Shown piece by piece: positions 5,908 to 11,806 of a stretch of 64,000 nucleotides of DNA; within the stretch, counting starts at the first letter, position 1; each line of letters starts with the position of its first letter. This stretch comes from Candidatus Electrothrix scaldis. Its GTDB lineage: Bacteria > Desulfobacterota > Desulfobulbia > Desulfobulbales > Desulfobulbaceae. A program made the translations under genes and the position numbers. Below the pieces are notes generated by a model. It saw nothing but the letters and a program-made list of their open reading frames with translations. It was not told the DNA's origin and made no database searches. The stretch covers positions 868,001 to 932,000 of the forward strand of contig CP138355.1 of NCBI GenBank assembly GCA_033584155.1, written 5' to 3'.

Positions 5908-6228
5908 ATGGCAACTATTGAGCACAATGGTACCAGCTACGAGGTTGATGAAGACGGCTTCCTGTTAGACGGATCCACCACCTGGGATGAAAACTGGGTT
6001 GATTACGTAAAAGGTGTAGAAGGTATCAATGAGATGACCGATGAGCATCAGAAGGTTATCGATTCTTTGCAGGAGTACTACAAGAAGAATGGTATTGCTC
6101 CTATGGTACGTATCCTCTCCAAGACCACTGGTTTCCCCCTGAAAAGAATTTACGAGCTGTTCCCTTCAGGACCTGGTAAAGGTGCTTGTAAGATGGCTGG
6201 TCTGCCCAAACCTACAGGTTGTGTATAA
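5908..6228 (+). CDS. dsrC: DsrC sulfur-carrier protein
   Basis: 106 residues, the usual DsrC length. It contains the family's flexible C-terminal arm with two conserved cysteines, Cys94 and the penultimate Cys105, eleven residues apart (GACKMAGLPKPTGCV). In sulfate reducers these two thiols carry sulfite-derived sulfur as a trisulfide between DsrAB and the DsrMKJOP membrane complex. With both cysteines present this is a true DsrC and not a TusE or RspA relative. A GGGAG ribosome site lies 8 bases before the ATG. The gene is monocistronic with its own terminator at 6261-6288, and no dsrAB is nearby, as is common in Desulfobacterota. Confidence 0.95.
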   Translation: MATIEHNGTSYEVDEDGFLLDGSTTWDENWVDYVKGVEGINEMTDEHQKVIDSLQEYYKKNGIAPMVRILSKTTGFPLKRIYELFPSGPGKGACKMAGLPKPTGCV

Positions 6229-6288: not shown

Positions 6289-6983
6289 ATTTTGAAATTT
6301 TCTCCCGCGCAAGGTATTGCCTTTCCTTCACTCGTGTATCACGAGTCGGTCGCTGTTTCCTTCCTCTGCTTTTCCGATCAAAATTTCCAAGCTTCCAGTA
6401 GATATCTTTTTCTCCTCCTGCTTTCCCGGACCTGTCAAAAGAAGATTTTTTTGATTTCTTATGGTTGGTAATGAATGAGAGATTTTATTGTGGCCCAGGG
6501 AAATATGTAGATTCTGAGAATATGACTTATTTTTATATTGTTGTTTTTTCGTATTAGTTGTTGACAGATCAGTTGTGATGCTTTCTCATGAGAGATGAAA
6601 ATTAGATCCTCTTGACGAGGAAAAAGGGGACGGAACTATTTTCTATGGAGACCCCTCCAACAGATAAAGCCAACCTTGTATTTTATGGAGTGTAAAAGGA
6701 GGAAGCAATTGTCGTTAAACGGCAGCACCGACAATCCTGTTCGCTCCCTCAGTCGCCCTGTCCGCCATGCGAAAATCGACACACGAACCGCCTTTCCTCG
6801 AAATCCTCATCGAATCCGGGGCCACAGCAATTCCTGACCGCACAGTTTTTGAACATCTCGCCCGCCGGGATAATGTGCCCGGCGTAGATTGTCATCAAGC
6901 AGGCCCGGCCTTGGATAAAATAACTCCATTCTTTTTGTGAACAAACGCAGTACACCAACAACCATTATTCTTTGGAGGTACGT
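6289..6983. other. Long intergenic region upstream of the RiPP-like locus
   Basis: About 690 bases without a convincing gene. It holds a perfect 7-bp palindrome with a TAT loop at 6330-6346. A strong AAAGGAGG site at 6695-6702 precedes a TTG-started 42-codon frame (6709-6837, Arg-rich, starting SLNGSTDNPV). An overlapping frame starting at ATG 6767 gives 57 codons, and a minus-strand frame runs 6961-6749. None is recognisable, so none is called; the well-placed ribosome site makes the 42-codon frame the best candidate for a small peptide. Confidence 0.4.
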
Positions 6984-7802
6984 ATGAGTTCAGAAGAAAC
7001 GTCATTCCCTATTATTCAAGTTGCAGTCGGTGAAAGTTTTGAAATTCACCTCTATTCACGAGGTGGATCGACTGGTTACCTTTGGTATCTGTCTGAGATG
7101 CCCAAGGGTGTGGTGCTGGTTTCCACAGCAGAAACACCTGTTGGTCCATCCATGCCGGGCAGTCAGACCCGCCAGACCTTTACCTTTGTCGCCACGGCAG
7201 AGATGAAAGGTCCCTTGTCCTTTGAGTTGCTTCGGATCTGGATGCCGACAGAACCCGCAGATACACGGAGCTATGTGGTCATTGCCGATGCAGCTGACGC
7301 GGAAAGCCTTGAGGCCAGAATGACGGCAGAGGCTGGTTCCGCCCGTTTTCTTCGACCGGAGTCCTTCAGGGCTGCTATGTCTCCGGTTCCCCCTTACGGT
7401 GTCCCTTATCCTGGACTCAAAGCAGATGAGTGTTGTAAGGATTCAGGTATCCATCCTCTCTATGGATTTCCACCGCCGACCTTGCCCGGAGGCCAGTATC
7501 TGGAATCCGTTGTTGAGAGTACCAACAACTGCCGGGTGAAATATGGTGTACCTTGGGGCGTGACCGATCCAGATAATTGTGTTTTGAAGTATGGTTTTCC
7601 GGGAGGTTGCTGCGATAAACCGGGAACAGTCATTCCATTGTACGGGTTCCCGCCTGATTCTCCGGTTGAAATAATTAAGGCGGATGATGATGCCAACTGC
7701 GTGGTGAAATACGGTATGCCGAATGGTGTCGGCAAAGATGATGAAAACTGTAACTTGAAATACGGTATGCCCAAGCCTAAACCGGATTGTAAAAAATGCT
7801 GA
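6984..7802 (+). CDS. Chagasin-like domain fused to seven Tyr-Gly motifs; candidate spliceotide-type RiPP precursor
   Basis: 272 residues. The start is the ATG at 6984, 5 bases after GGAGG. Residues about 8-105 resemble the I42/chagasin cysteine-protease inhibitor fold: a GGSTGYLW loop at 27-34 (family: NPTTGY-x-W) and LLRIWMP at 82-88 in the place of the family's RPW loop. After a ~30-residue linker the C-terminal half carries seven YG motifs, each followed by V, F or M and then P, at residues 138, 160, 187, 203, 220, 243 and 260, with paired or single cysteines between them (Cys150/151, 183, 199, 209/210, 239, 256, 269, 272). The gene directly downstream encodes a radical SAM/SPASM protein. 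PlpX-type radical SAM spliceases are known to cut tyramine out of X-Tyr-Gly sites to leave alpha-keto-beta-amino residues, so a substrate-enzyme pair is inferred. No signal peptide is seen. Confidence 0.75.
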   Translation: MSSEETSFPIIQVAVGESFEIHLYSRGGSTGYLWYLSEMPKGVVLVSTAETPVGPSMPGSQTRQTFTFVATAEMKGPLSFELLRIWMPTEPADTRSYVVIADAADAESLEARMTAEAGSARFLRPESFRAAMSPVPPYGVPYPGLKADECCKDSGIHPLYGFPPPTLPGGQYLESVVESTNNCRVKYGVPWGVTDPDNCVLKYGFPGGCCDKPGTVIPLYGFPPDSPVEIIKADDDANCVVKYGMPNGVGKDDENCNLKYGMPKPKPDCKKC

Positions 7803-7825
7803 TGAATTGGTGGTAGGTGATGTTA

Positions 7826-7855
7826 GGCGGTGCCGTGTATCTGCATCGCCTTTTT
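7826..7855 (+). terminator. Weak terminator or attenuator between precursor and radical SAM genes
   Basis: GGCGGTGC pairs with GCATCGCC around a short loop, followed by TTTTTGA. It lies 24 bases after the precursor stop and 35 before the next gene. Such a leaky terminator would give much more precursor than enzyme, the usual balance in RiPP operons. Confidence 0.55.
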
Positions 7856-7890
7856 GATAGCATATTGATTTTACGTAGAGGATGACTGTT

Positions 7891-9363
7891 ATGGATTTTA
7901 CCCCTGTTACAGGTGTATGGGAAATAACTATGGGCTGCAATATGCGCTGTAAGCATTGCGGCTCAAGCTGCACAAGCCCGCTGGAAGATGAGCTGACAAC
8001 GGAAGAAGCCCTGGCTCTCTGTGATGATATTGCCGACTTGGGACTCAAATGGATAACTTTGTCCGGCGGTGAACCCCTGACCAGAAGAGATTGGCCTCAG
8101 CTCGTGGAACGGCTGCGCTGTAAGGGGGTAATACCGAATATTATCACCAATGGCTGGATGTGTGATGAAAAGGCTGTCCTACGGGCCAAAGAGGCCGGAG
8201 TGGGCACCTTTGCCATCAGTCTGGACGGTTTGCCTGATACCCATGATTATATGCGGAAACAAGGTTCGTTCGAGAGAACAGCCAGGGCGTTTCAGTTGAT
8301 GGCTGAAAACGATATTTCTTCAGGAGCGATCACCACAGTAAGCACAAAGAATATGCCGGAACTGCCTGCGCTGAAAGAAAAACTGCTGGAACTGGGAGTG
8401 CGTTACTGGCAGTTGCAGATAGGTCTGCCTATGGGCAACTTTGAGCAGACACCGCAGATGATTATGTCCCCTGAAGATGTTGACCAGGTGATTGATTTTA
8501 TCTATTCCGCAGCCGATGATGACCGCATCACTATTTATCCTGCGGATTGCATTGGCTATTACAGTCATAAAGAACTGGCCTCAAGACAGAAGGCACATAA
8601 GGCTGCTTCGCCTCCAGTCTGGCGGGGATGCAATGCAGGAAAGCGCAGTTTCGGCATTCTCCATAATGGTGAAATACTCGGTTGCACCTCAATCCGTAAC
8701 AGAGAATTTATTGAAGGCAGTATCCGGGAAAGACCACTCCGAGAAATCTGGGAGGATGAAAAGAGTTTTCTGTGGAGCAGAACCCTGAAAAAAGAAGAGC
8801 TGGAAGGGCAGTGTAAGACCTGCCAGTACGGTGACCTTTGCCTGGGCGGCTGCCCCAATACCCGATTGACTATGACAGGTAGGATTCATTCGGAGAATGC
8901 ATTCTGTTCCTATAATGTGGCCTTAAAGAAAACACAGCGCATCATAGGACCAATTGATAGTGTAGCTGAACTTCTTCAAACGGCCCGTAACTTGGTGATG
9001 AAGGGAGAGTTCCAGCTCGCAGCCTTGTCCCTTGAGCGGGCACTGGAAATAGAGCCTGAAAATATTGATGTGCTACAATTGTATGGTTATGTCAGTTTCT
9101 CACTGAATAATCTGAAGGAATGCAGAGATGCCAATCAGCAGGTGCTGAAGATTGATACCGACAATGTATATGCTAACAAAGGGATGGGACTGGCCCTGCA
9201 TCGCTTAGGAGATTCGGACGTCGGTATTCGCTATTTGCAGAAGGCTGTTGCTCTGGCACCGGAGGGTGATAGAGACCCGTATAATGATCTTGCGGCAGTA
9301 TATATGGAAACAGGACAACAAGACAAAGCGGAAGCCTTACTGAAAGAGGCGAATCTTTTGTAA
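7891..9363 (+). CDS. Radical SAM/SPASM protein with C-terminal TPR repeats; candidate splicease
   Basis: 490 residues from the ATG at 7891, which has AGAGG 9 bases upstream; the ATG at 7882 touches that ribosome site and is unlikely. Cys16, Cys20 and Cys23 form the CX3CX2C site for the SAM-cleaving 4Fe-4S cluster (GCNMRCKHC). A SPASM region follows at about 245-345, with Cys in RGCNAGKRS, LGCTS, CKTCQYGDLC, GGCPN and AFC, consistent with auxiliary clusters. Residues about 350-490 form tetratricopeptide repeats (LERALEIEPENIDVLQLYGY and the like), unusual for a peptide-modifying enzyme and perhaps used to hold the large substrate. It follows the YG-repeat protein in a two-gene unit closed by a strong terminator. 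Peptide modification is inferred from context; the exact chemistry is unproven. Confidence 0.85.
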   Translation: MDFTPVTGVWEITMGCNMRCKHCGSSCTSPLEDELTTEEALALCDDIADLGLKWITLSGGEPLTRRDWPQLVERLRCKGVIPNIITNGWMCDEKAVLRAKEAGVGTFAISLDGLPDTHDYMRKQGSFERTARAFQLMAENDISSGAITTVSTKNMPELPALKEKLLELGVRYWQLQIGLPMGNFEQTPQMIMSPEDVDQVIDFIYSAADDDRITIYPADCIGYYSHKELASRQKAHKAASPPVWRGCNAGKRSFGILHNGEILGCTSIRNREFIEGSIRERPLREIWEDEKSFLWSRTLKKEELEGQCKTCQYGDLCLGGCPNTRLTMTGRIHSENAFCSYNVALKKTQRIIGPIDSVAELLQTARNLVMKGEFQLAALSLERALEIEPENIDVLQLYGYVSFSLNNLKECRDANQQVLKIDTDNVYANKGMGLALHRLGDSDVGIRYLQKAVALAPEGDRDPYNDLAAVYMETGQQDKAEALLKEANLL

Positions 9364-9381
9364 CCTCAAGTTGTATCCACA

Positions 9382-9416
9382 GAGAGATTGTCGCCGGACA
9401 ATCTCTCTTTCTTTTT
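9382..9416 (+). terminator. Terminator of the RiPP-like operon
   Basis: An 11-bp perfect stem (GAGAGATTGTC with its complement, GCCG loop) followed by a T-rich tract, 18 bases after the radical SAM stop. Confidence 0.85.
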
Positions 9417-9462: not shown

Positions 9463-9741
9463 TTAAACAATAGCAATCTTACAGCCCAAGGCTTCAACCA
9501 CTTTTTTCACAGTGTCGAATTTCGGTGAGCTACCTTCAGACAGAGCTTTGTAAAGATTCTGCCTGCCAAGTTTTGTTTTTTGGGCAATTTCAGTCATGCC
9601 TTTTGCCTTGGCAATATCACCCAATGCACGTTGAAAGCCTTCAACACCGTTTTCTTCCAACATAATCTGAAGATATTCTTTCATCATTTCCGGGCTGTCA
9701 AGATATTCGCTTGCGTCCCACTTGCTTGTAATAACTTTCAT
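9463..9741 (-). CDS. HTH antitoxin of an addiction module (HigA-like)
   Basis: 92 residues with a helix-turn-helix in the C-terminal half (GMTEIAQKTKLGRQNLYKAL, then SPKFDTVKKVVEALG). It belongs to the group of addiction-module antidote proteins encoded downstream of a RelE/HigB-like toxin. The toxin gene ends 2 bases before this start. The antitoxin should bind the toxin and repress the pair's promoter. Confidence 0.85.
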   Translation of the reverse strand: MKVITSKWDASEYLDSPEMMKEYLQIMLEENGVEGFQRALGDIAKAKGMTEIAQKTKLGRQNLYKALSEGSSPKFDTVKKVVEALGCKIAIV

Positions 9742-9743
9742 TT

Positions 9744-10043
9744 TTATTGCTCCAGTTTGTCCATAATCGTTATAGCCCTGGCAATATCCTGTTTCTGTGA
9801 TGATTTATCACCGCCGCACAGCAGCAATATAATTTTTTCACCTTTAATTGTGTAATAAACACGATAGCCTGAGCCGAAGAAAAATCGTAATTCAAACAAA
9901 TTCTGACCGACCGATTTCACATCACCGAAATTACCGTATTCAACACGGTAAAGCCTTGCCATAATACGGTTAACGACCGTTTTGTCTTTCAACTTGTTCA
10001 GCCAGCTGTTAAAGACATTTGTTTTCTCAATTTTGTATTTCAT
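9744..10043 (-). CDS. RelE/HigB-superfamily toxin
   Basis: 99 residues from the ATG at 10043, chosen because AAAGGAG lies about 10 bases upstream; the frame is open 25 codons further. The sequence has the killer-protein pattern: an N-terminal helix pair (FNSWLNKLKD, VVNRIMARLYRVEYGNFGDVK), then ELRFFFGSGYRVYYTIKGEKIILLLCGGDKSSQ. Proteins of this group cut mRNA on the ribosome. The gene is first in a toxin-antitoxin pair, with the antitoxin 2 bases downstream. Confidence 0.85.
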   Translation of the reverse strand: MKYKIEKTNVFNSWLNKLKDKTVVNRIMARLYRVEYGNFGDVKSVGQNLFELRFFFGSGYRVYYTIKGEKIILLLCGGDKSSQKQDIARAITIMDKLEQ

Positions 10044-10228
10044 GAGCGTATTGTCTCCTTTGTAGGACAATGGGTCAAGCTGAATTTTAGAAAATTCTTC
10101 AAAAATTCCTTCTACCACTCTATACCCCTTGACTTGTCAGGCAATCCCTTCTAAGTATCTTTTTTGCAGTTTCAAACGAGTATCATTCCTCCCCAAAAAA
10201 AATAGAAAAAGAAGGTAGATAAATTACC

Positions 10229-11806
10229 ATGATTACCCTGCTAGATTACGGTGCTGGCAATGTGCGTTCAGTTGTAAATGCCCTGGAGAGCTTGGGCGAA
10301 ACAGTGGTCAGGGTTCATTCTCCTGCTGATATTGCCAAGGCAGAACGGCTGGTTTTTCCCGGAGTGGGCAATTTTGGTGCCATGATGCATACGTTGCGAG
10401 AGCAGCAGCTTATAGAACCCCTCCTCCGTTACCTCCACGAAGATAGACCGTTTTTCGGTATCTGTGTCGCGCTGCAGGCCTTGTTTGAGTCCAGTGAAGA
10501 GGCACCTGGTGAGACTGGGCTTGCCTTTCTTCCTGGGCGGGTGAAGCGCTTTGAGACGGATTTGGCCATCCCCCATATCGGCTGGAACGGGATCAAGGTG
10601 CATCAACCTTCCCGGATTTTTTCTGGTTTCTCTGGGGAGGAAAAGCTGTATTTTGTTCATTCCTATCATGTGGAGACCTCGGAGGACGATGCTGTTCTCA
10701 CCACCACCGATTATGGCTATGAGTTTGTCAGCTCGGTACAGAAGGGAAATATCATTGCCACCCAGTTTCATCCGGAAAAGAGCGGCAAGGCGGGCCTGAA
10801 GTTGCTGGAAAATTTTTTGGATACCAGCCGTGAAGCTGTTATTCCGCAATCCTGCCCAACAGAGACTAAATTGGCCGAGCGTATTATTGCCTGCCTTGAT
10901 GTTCGCTCCAATGATCAGGGCGATCTGGTGGTGACCAAGGGCGATCAGTATGATGTACGAGAGGATGGAAATGTGCGTAATCTGGGGATGCCGATTGAGC
11001 TGGCCCAGGATTATTATGAGCAAGGGGCTGATGAGGTCACTTTTCTTAATATCACCGCCTTCCGTGATTTCCCCCTTCAGGATATGCCGATGATGGAGGT
11101 GTTGCAAAAGACTTCGGAAAAGGTCTTTGTGCCCTTGACCGTCGGTGGTGGGATTCGCGATTTTACCGATTGTAATGGAAAAAAATACTCAGCCTTGGAG
11201 GTTGCCTCGGAGTATTTTCGTTCAGGAGCAGATAAGGTCTCCATTGGTTCTGATGCCGTATTGATTGTGGAAGAGGTCATCAAGGCCGGTAAATCCACAG
11301 GGCTCAGCTCCATAGAGCAAATTTCTCGGGTGTATGGCAATCAGGCAGTGGTGATTTCTGTGGATCCAAGGCGGGTTTATGTGCAGCATCCTGATGACAC
11401 CTCGCATCCGGTTATCAAAACCGCATTTCCTGGAGAAAACGGGGAAGAGTATTGCTGGTATCAGTGTACGGTGCTGGGAGGGCGTGAAGGGCGCGATCTT
11501 GATGCGATTACGCTGGCCAAGGTCTGCGAGGACTTAGGTGCGGGAGAAATTCTCCTGAACTGCATTGATAAGGATGGAACCAACTCCGGCTTTGATTTGG
11601 AATTGATTAACGCAGTGAAGAGCGCCGTCACGATCCCGGTTATTGCCTCAAGCGGGGCTGGATGTGCTGAACATTTCCTCGAAGTTTTTACCAAGACCGA
11701 TGCTGAGGCGGCTTTGGCAGCTGGCATCTTTCATCGGAAAGAAGTACCAATCGGAGAGGTAAAGCAATTTTTGCAGGAAAACGAGATAGAAGTCAGGTCT
11801 TGTTGA
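10229..11806 (+). CDS. hisHF: Fused imidazole glycerol phosphate synthase HisH-HisF
   Basis: 525 residues in one frame. Residues 1-200 are the glutaminase HisH, with nucleophile Cys79 (FFGICVALQ) and His181/Glu183 (QFHPEKSG). From about 213 the HisF cyclase barrel begins (IIACLDVR, catalytic Asp224). The two activities make imidazole glycerol phosphate and AICAR from PRFAR and glutamine in histidine synthesis. Separate hisH and hisF are normal in bacteria. Here the fusion, a long insert with FTDCNGKKYSALEVASEYF, and the motifs WYQCTVLGGREGRD, GEILLNCIDKDGTNSG and AALAAGIFHRKEVPI match the eukaryotic HIS7 pattern. The gene stands alone, with no other his genes in the window. Confidence 0.93.
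   Translation: MITLLDYGAGNVRSVVNALESLGETVVRVHSPADIAKAERLVFPGVGNFGAMMHTLREQQLIEPLLRYLHEDRPFFGICVALQALFESSEEAPGETGLAFLPGRVKRFETDLAIPHIGWNGIKVHQPSRIFSGFSGEEKLYFVHSYHVETSEDDAVLTTTDYGYEFVSSVQKGNIIATQFHPEKSGKAGLKLLENFLDTSREAVIPQSCPTETKLAERIIACLDVRSNDQGDLVVTKGDQYDVREDGNVRNLGMPIELAQDYYEQGADEVTFLNITAFRDFPLQDMPMMEVLQKTSEKVFVPLTVGGGIRDFTDCNGKKYSALEVASEYFRSGADKVSIGSDAVLIVEEVIKAGKSTGLSSIEQISRVYGNQAVVISVDPRRVYVQHPDDTSHPVIKTAFPGENGEEYCWYQCTVLGGREGRDLDAITLAKVCEDLGAGEILLNCIDKDGTNSGFDLELINAVKSAVTIPVIASSGAGCAEHFLEVFTKTDAEAALAAGIFHRKEVPIGEVKQFLQENEIEVRSC

Follow-up and report, generated by a model that had tools for sequence, protein, structure and literature searches.

Two adjacent genes in a stretch of 64,000 nucleotides from the genome of Candidatus Electrothrix scaldis (contig CP138355.1, positions 868,001 to 932,000; hereafter the window) encode a chagasin-like protein with a repetitive tail and a radical S-adenosylmethionine (SAM) enzyme that carries a SPASM domain and C-terminal tetratricopeptide repeats (TPRs). 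As judged from the sequences, the enzyme, a relative of the PlpX-type family TIGR04103, probably acts on the Tyr-Gly-x-Pro (YGxP) sites that the chagasin protein bears in its disordered tail and excises tyramine from them. The domains, the repeated sites and the kinship of the enzyme are all recognizable, and enzymes of this group recur beside partners that bear Y(G/A/M)x(x)P on different carriers. The host genome is a single contig of 5.09 Mb, and the two-gene unit lies on the + strand with exact coordinates. The predicted substrate gene, open reading frame (ORF) A, has the following parts.

6984..7802 (ATG at 6984), + strand: substrate/inhibitor gene (ORF A), 272 aa, chagasin domain and repeat tail
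7020..7274, + strand: chagasin (Inhibitor_I42) domain, aa 13-97 (Pfam, AlphaFold2, Foldseek)
7395..7406, + strand: site 1, Y138 (PPYGVP), X = Pro
7461..7472, + strand: site 2, Y160 (PLYGFP), X = Leu
7542..7553, + strand: site 3, Y187 (CRVKYGVP), X = Lys, Cys at -4
7590..7601, + strand: site 4, Y203 (CVLKYGFP), X = Lys, Cys at -4
7641..7652, + strand: site 5, Y220 (PLYGFP), X = Leu
7710..7721, + strand: site 6, Y243 (CVVKYGMP), X = Lys, Cys at -4
7761..7772, + strand: site 7, Y260 (CNLKYGMP), X = Lys, Cys at -4

The preliminary description of this DNA had listed a 272-residue protein with a chagasin-like N-terminus and seven Tyr-Gly-(V/F/M)-Pro motifs beside a radical SAM/SPASM protein with C-terminal TPRs, and domain searches, models and an exact site count confirm each of these elements. 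ORF A matches PF09394 over aa 13-97 (E=1.8e-11), and its 44.6 bits exceed the I42 gathering score of 27.2. Modelling of the substrate, suggested at the same time, returned a chagasin fold over aa 11-110 followed by a disordered tail: in the AlphaFold2 model, built with nine aligned rows, ten-residue means of the confidence score pLDDT are 71-94 over aa 11-110, and pLDDT is below 50 from aa 120 onward. The first Foldseek matches of the model are EhICP2 (3m88, E=1.5e-6) and T. cruzi chagasin (2nqd/2oul, target TM score 0.71/0.73). A Nif11 or nitrile-hydratase leader is absent from ORF A, for which I42 is the sole Pfam match and no NCBIfam family matches.

The tail contains exactly seven Y-G-x-P sites, at aa 138, 160, 187, 203, 220, 243 and 260 (x = V, F, V, F, F, M and M). 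They account for seven of the nine Tyr after residue 110 and for none of the four before it. Counting both strands, the 5.09-Mb genome contains 239 copies of the corresponding DNA pattern, TAYGGNNTNCC; ORF A has seven occurrences within 377 bases on one strand, where 0.009 are expected. The Cys-rich spacer reported earlier is real and patterned, four of the ten tail Cys lying exactly four residues before a site Tyr.

The second gene, ORF B, encodes the enzyme.

7882..9363, + strand: radical SAM/SPASM/TPR enzyme gene (ORF B), 493 aa
7921..8352, + strand: radical SAM domain, aa 14-157, C19-x3-C23-x2-C26 (Pfam, 3.3e-25)
8629..8826, + strand: SPASM domain, aa 250-315 (Pfam)
8962..9351, + strand: TPR array, about aa 361-490 (Pfam TPR families; helices in the model)

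The Cys of the radical SAM CxxxCxxC motif and of the seven-Cys SPASM pattern are invariant in 39 aligned rows; the latter are C250, C268, C311 and C314 in the SPASM region and C320, C324 and C342 beyond the domain. The structure model of the enzyme has a pLDDT of 90.9. In the NCBIfam ranking TIGR04103 comes first (225.7 bits), followed by TIGR03913 (204.9 bits) and by other SPASM families from 181.8 bits down, which gives TIGR04103 a margin of 44 bits over the next unrelated family. TIGR04103, which we take to be the PlpX splicease family, is presumably equal to the entry IPR026482. The latter is named for PlpX in PMC11002830; TIGR04103 was not found in any paper of the open literature searched. 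A Nostoc plasmid protein used as a control for the profile scored 853 bits, above the cut-off. It adjoins a 71-aa ORF, which from its position would be PlpY, and a Nif11 precursor ending GGRGSIALYGLPPELF; the last residues of the neighbouring precursor read ALYGLPPELF. The window enzyme is 29% identical to the Nostoc protein and has the same cluster-Cys pattern.

In a careful tree of 51 rows, from which four long outgroup rows had been removed, eight outgroup SPASM rows were split off with support of 100/100 from the window group, from TIGR04103 and TIGR03913 and from two relatives on long branches (L048 and L057; such designations are used for the loci compared). Fifteen residues, including G27, S28, Q177, Q179, M184, N186, G225, G258 and N339, are present in at least 90% of 38 ingroup rows, in the three TIGR04103/TIGR03913-type rows as well, and in at most one quarter of the outgroup. 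A placement among unrelated SPASM families such as the anaerobic sulfatase maturases, considered earlier as an alternative, was not borne out: the maturase profile TIGR03942 scored 68.2 bits against a cut-off of 349.45, and in the tree, from which that family is absent, the enzyme stands apart from the eight other SPASM rows. The sequence comparisons suggest that the enzyme probably belongs to a sister or related group of TIGR04103, outside the family itself, and works like a splicease.

Relatives of the enzyme were gathered by a scan of genome contigs with exact short peptides, which returned 48 loci and is a biased sample. Forty-one of these (L009-L049) are clear relatives; L050-L056 were set aside. 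The TPRs are covered by the match in 37 of the 41 (the exceptions are L043, L045, L046 and L048), and the TPR fusion, which the preliminary description took for an unusual point, is normal in the group. An ORF with Y(G/A/M)x(x)P is found near the enzyme on the same strand at 38 of the 41 loci; the opposite strand has one at 7 of the 41, and 5 of 25 far flanks have one. At least two such sites occur at 23 of 41 loci on the same strand, one of 41 on the opposite strand and none of 25 far flanks. In a control without Pro, at least two plain Y(G/A) were found nearby at 31 of 41 loci but also on the opposite strand at 15 of 41, and only the Pro-bearing motif was used because this control was weak. 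The pairing of the enzyme with a Tyr-Gly protein, as first claimed for the window, thus recurs in a broader form.

The carriers of the sites, as read from the ORFs, are of several kinds. Chagasin-like carriers occur at ten of the 41 loci (L009, L010, L013, L014, L015, L016, L024, L033, L038 and L040), and short double-glycine-leader peptides, mostly multi-site such as PLYGIQPLYGIKPLYGI, at sixteen (L012, L017, L018, L020, L021, L023, L026, L027, L029, L031, L034, L039, L041, L043, L044 and L049). Nine loci (L022, L025, L028, L030, L032, L035, L037, L042 and L047) have peptides with a nitrile-hydratase-type leader and one Tyr-Gly or Tyr-Ala; Pfam matches, themselves under the cut-off, indicate the leader type in L022 and L028, and in the other seven it was assigned by eye. 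The carrier of L036 is an S-layer-domain protein with three sites (Pfam SLH, 1.4e-27), and L019, L045 and L048 have short or other carriers. L011 and L046 had no visible site-bearing ORF nearby, and in a search with one query at E<=0.01 the genomes of L011, L019, L036, L045 and L046 gave no partner of the chagasin type.

Eleven chagasin-like proteins were compared, those of the window, L009, L010, L013, L014, L015, L016, L024, L033, L040 and L083; L038, from the same genome as L033, was left out. The substrate gene is upstream of the enzyme gene on the same strand at 11 of 11 of these loci and directly adjoins it at every locus other than L033, which has two ORFs between the genes. In the 51-row tree all 11 chagasin-linked enzymes fall, together with L011, L036, L043 and L046, inside one 15-row set supported 97/97, and the enzymes of the nitrile-hydratase-leader loci form a set supported 100/99. 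It is very improbable, then, that the repeat-bearing chagasin protein is a chance neighbour, unrelated to the enzyme as a substrate, given eleven occurrences with such constant gene order, motif carriers near 38 of the 41 relatives and enzyme sets that track carrier type. In a quick tree of 59 rows with more outgroups the chagasin-linked enzymes formed several separate branches at the base of the TPR group. Because the two trees disagree on the root, no ancestry or direction of carrier change is claimed.

Several of these loci have features of their own. In L036 the S-layer-homology protein (1793-2575), whose C-terminus carries YGYP, YGIP and YGFP, adjoins the enzyme gene and may be a surface-layer protein with a modified tail. 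The protein of L048:5160-5978, with VYAGP/VYGGP repeats and a zinc-ribbon-like end, lies ahead of a TPR-less distant enzyme relative. The syntrophomonad loci L022, L025, L030, L032, L042 and L047 contain rows of small peptides of double-glycine type and with nitrile-hydratase-like leaders; the peptides of the second kind have a single AYG/VYG and a Gly-rich W-x-W-P tail. A gene for a B12-binding radical SAM protein, possibly a second modifying enzyme, is located just upstream of the chagasin-repeat gene in L014 (3298-4734) and L024 (3647-5098), where the sites read YAAP; L015:3355-4809 resembles it by appearance. A 68-aa YG-rich ORF in L013 (5648-5854) was considered as a precursor and rejected, being an out-of-frame reading of the chagasin gene with YMAP repeats.

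Across the eleven chagasin-like tails, Pro is at +3 of 103 of the 142 Tyr and makes up 11.8% of the residues, a count that describes a regularity and no probability because repeats inside one protein are not independent. Substrates of the relatives have up to 16 Y-x-x-P sites. The +1 residue of the 103 sites is Gly in 43, Ala in 43, Met in 9, Gln in 4 and another residue in 4, with Ala dominating in L014, L015, L024 and L083 and Met in L013; Tyr is preceded by Lys in 51 sites and by Leu in 20. The strict YG motif of the preliminary description therefore does not hold in the sister loci, which read YA and YM, and the site is better written Y-x-x-P, Pro +3 being kept while Gly +1 varies. Of the 103 sites, 21 have Cys exactly at -4, and none has it anywhere from -3 to +1. 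Twenty of these cases lie within the 31 sites of the window (4/7), L009 (6/9) and L010 (10/15), and none in the sites of L013, L014, L015, L024, L033, L040 and L083. Because of this concentration the Cys register is regarded as a feature of some lineages.

Several points weigh against the proposed interpretation; those that concern the enzyme are taken here and those that concern the product further below. The score of 225.7 bits does not reach the TIGR04103 cut-off of 725 bits. The outgroup is narrow, all eight rows being own-phylum matches to the TIGR04103 profile or from the host genome itself, and the 51-row tree does not resolve how the window group, TIGR04103/TIGR03913, L048 and L057 branch relative to one another. 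Because of this narrow outgroup and because the comparison was with the Nostoc protein, at 29% identity, the enzyme is called a related group rather than a member of TIGR04103; the splicease kinship first suggested is supported by the best profile and by the grouping in the tree. A tblastn search with one Nostoc query gave no match to a PlpY-like partner at E<=1 in the loci gathered, a single-sequence search being insensitive. Finally, 60 of the 103 sites are without Gly at +1, as against the published X-Tyr-Gly motif, and for this reason the chemistry might differ from that of PlpX.

The enzyme could instead catalyse a different radical SAM reaction at Tyr-x-x-Pro, a Tyr-based carbon-carbon or ether crosslink or an epimerisation, and the product would then contain rings or D-residues and no ketoamides. 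Such a reaction would fit the dispensable Gly +1 and the low family score, as well as the nearest solved folds to the enzyme model, which are PqqE, SkfB and anSME, with no splicease among the 50 matches listed. It is nevertheless unlikely, although it deserves to be kept in mind: TIGR04103 is the best profile, the tree groups the enzyme with TIGR04103/TIGR03913, and the (L/K)YGxP context is that of the PlpXY tags and of the Nostoc precursor. The +1 residue, moreover, would take no part in the net reaction published for PlpXY, to judge from the available part of PMC10533398.

Under tyramine excision, the pathway would comprise three steps. In the first, the enzyme would cut the tyramine portion out of every site Tyr, with the loss of 135.0757 Da at each that is reported for PlpXY, and rejoin the chain, leaving an alpha-keto-beta-amino (ketoamide) residue derived from the residue before Tyr, which is Lys at four sites, Leu at two and Pro at one. 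By analogy with PlpXY, this step at the tail sites appears reasonably likely. In the second, the TPRs or the chagasin domain would stand in for the recognition of the substrate by a leader and an RRE (recognition element) in PlpXY. In the third, the finished protein would block cysteine or serine proteases through as many as seven electrophilic ketoamides acting as warheads, of which four would be Val-Lys or Leu-Lys, and the chagasin fold would possibly add binding to a papain-type cleft. Val or Leu at P2 and Lys at P1 would suit papain-like or Lys-specific proteases. A protease-blocking product with many warheads is only slightly short of evenly likely.

The points against the product as an inhibitor concern the chagasin domain and its setting. 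The three binding loops of chagasin are NPTTGY/F, GxGG and RPW. They are kept in part in the window protein, where GGSTGYLW is partly conserved and RIW replaces RPW; L013 and L083 retain both STGY/GTGY and RPW, and L016, L033 and L040 have lost more loop elements. The Pfam I42 cut-off is passed by eight of the eleven proteins (window, L009, L010, L013, L014, L015, L024 and L083). L040 scores 18.7 against 27.2. L016 and L033 do not match Pfam I42 even when the threshold is relaxed to E<=10; they are labelled chagasin-like because they align to the window protein, with 34% and 29% identity. No signal peptide was seen by eye on any chagasin-like protein, that of the window included, the start of L083 being unsure. 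The host genome encodes one papain-type (C1) protein, which has a signal-like start. As a general target this protease was rejected, since C1 genes are not associated with the chagasin-type loci: papain-type proteases occur in one of nine chagasin-type genomes versus two of eleven others, and in two of ten when the window genome is added. No recurrent transporter or protease was found in the flanking ORFs of the ten other chagasin-like loci (first 100 residues by eye, no family search, several loci short), and none is among the scanned neighbours of the gene pair in the window; L013 has transporter-like ORFs downstream on the opposite strand.

Because the loops are altered and papain-type genes are not associated, the chagasin domain may be a mere handle for the enzyme. 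Splicing would then be real, with the chagasin domain serving as a folded recognition handle, a domain-sized leader, and the product would not be a protease inhibitor of the chagasin type. This is a substantial possibility, though rather less than an even one. The occurrence of carriers with Nif11 or nitrile-hydratase leaders, double-glycine leaders or S-layer domains beside related enzymes implies that the carrier is exchangeable, and the poor I42 scores of three of the proteins, the pattern of C1 proteases and the absence of a visible export signal point the same way. On the other hand, an inhibitor fold next to inhibitor-type chemistry at eleven loci would be an odd coincidence, and most of the eleven domains pass the I42 cut-off, two of them with both loop elements intact. 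The chagasin domain may also be a papain-type cleft binder.

A bolder form of the inhibitor proposal is a rather improbable one. It supposes a family of cytosolic two-component inhibitors in which the chagasin fold carries up to about fifteen ketoamides, produced by a leader- and RRE-free, TPR-fused enzyme that tolerates Ala, Met and Gln after Tyr given Pro at +3. In the window lineage the Lys-type warheads would be kept dormant by the Cys at -4 through a reversible thiohemiketal ring (C-x-x-K), and the inhibitor would be self-masked and multivalent.

Systems of this kind are rare in the phyla searched, where only the best few candidates per genome were scored. Relatives of the enzyme were found in one of 394 other genomes of its own phylum at E<=1e-70, namely the TPR-less protein of L057, and no members of TIGR04103 above the cut-off were found in 59 genomes of that phylum. 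L057 also has a 65-aa ORF (2644-2841, - strand) ending AYGDGGGGGVGIA, with AYGDGGGGG near its end, a possible single-site precursor. In the phylum of the L013 organism the enzyme occurs in three of 397 other genomes at E<=1e-90: L083, of the chagasin type with KYAAP repeats, and two of the nitrile-hydratase-leader type, one identical in sequence to L030. Viral contigs gave six distant matches with the enzyme alignment and none with the chagasin protein.

The two-gene unit is preceded by a DsrC gene (5908-6228; Pfam E=6e-33) and followed by a reversed toxin-antitoxin-like pair, and its likely control elements are these.

6974..6978, + strand: GGAGG, likely ribosome-binding site of the substrate gene (from sequence reading)
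9381..9408, + strand: hairpin resembling an intrinsic terminator, with 12 pairs followed by a T-rich stretch, at the end of the two-gene unit (consensus scan)

The terminator-like site begins 17 bases past the enzyme stop; the scan found four such sites in the region as compared with 2.9 in shuffles. The true start of ORF B is likely ATG 7891, as suggested by AGAGG at 7877-7881 and by the MDF start of the L024 relative. Right behind the terminator-like site, the reversed pair (9463-10118, - strand) encodes a dnstrm_HI1420 antidote and a Gp49-like protein. A single ORF at 10229-11806 fuses a HisH-type glutamine amidotransferase to a HisF-type histidine synthase (GATase plus His_biosynth); HisH-HisF fusions are found mainly in eukaryotes.

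Spliceases, spliceotides and their spread among bacteria are already known. Apparently new here are the chagasin carrier, the TPR fusion without PlpY as far as seen, the loosened +1 position and the lineage-specific Cys register. Scott et al. 2022 (Chem 8, 2659), whose title names peptides and proteins, reportedly treat spliced products as protease inhibitors, according to reviews that cite them. The open literature searched, which does not include that study, held no paper pairing chagasin with splicease, radical SAM or ribosomally synthesized peptides; Scott et al. may already cover the chagasin type. A search for Inhibitor_I42 with terms for ribosomally synthesized and post-translationally modified peptides returned the review PMC11002830 alone, and the I42 term is absent from the available part of it. 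If the sites are spliced, the system would be a natural route to many protease-reactive ketoamides in one folded protein, leader-free and apparently without a separate recognition protein. It would be useful for protein engineering, PlpXY having needed elaborate tag placement in FtsZ (available part of PMC10533398), and would bear on the question of why bacteria make beta-amino-acid proteins. The family is also a natural experiment: with related enzymes, at least four carrier types and lineages that pass from YG to YA/YM, sequence comparison can reveal how the sites are recognized.

Among known systems the plp cluster is the closest. According to the parts of the sources available, PlpX excises tyramine at X-Tyr-Gly together with PlpY, a truncated RRE (PMC11002830); the splice tags of PlpXY contain PLYGLPI, similar to PLYGFPP in the window tail, and most tag placements in FtsZ were not accepted (PMC10533398). 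The Nostoc plasmid locus, with its TIGR04103 protein, Nif11 precursor and 71-aa ORF, has the layout of the plp cluster as given in the available part of PMC11002830. Reviews credit spliced products with protease inhibition (PMC10373908, section 10; PMC11117315, in part), and other spliceotide clusters use peptidase-transporters (PMC10885120, in part). The window locus resembles PlpXY/TIGR04103 in the cluster-Cys pattern of the Nostoc protein, the best curated profile, the substrate gene directly upstream and seven X-Tyr-Gly sites of the form (L/K)YG(L/V/F/M)P. It differs, in a comparison made via the Nostoc protein and not PlpX, by a score under the family cut-off, by C-terminal TPRs, by having neither a PlpY detected in the weak search nor a Nif11/nitrile-hydratase leader, by a substrate that is a folded inhibitor-type domain and by sister lineages that drop the +1 Gly.

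The maturases of GDL-motif peptides, TIGR03913, are the second-best profile of the enzyme and join TIGR04103 in the tree; unlike the window enzyme, they have no TPR match and no chagasin partner. Four of five DUF1843 GDL-motif peptides next to TIGR03913-type enzymes, as in L071:3165-3878 and L072:2299-2754, carry PYG, MYA or LYA (RPYGPAM, LPMYAAS, VLYAAG, QPYGAGI), and their sequences hint that Tyr-Gly/Ala sites may be targets of these enzymes as well. With the I42 inhibitors (T. cruzi chagasin, EhICP2 and P. aeruginosa ICP) the window protein shares the fold, the Pfam family and STGY plus Trp of the first binding loop. It is distinguished from them by the lack of a signal peptide by eye, by its third loop, RIW, and by a long tail with seven predicted enzyme sites.

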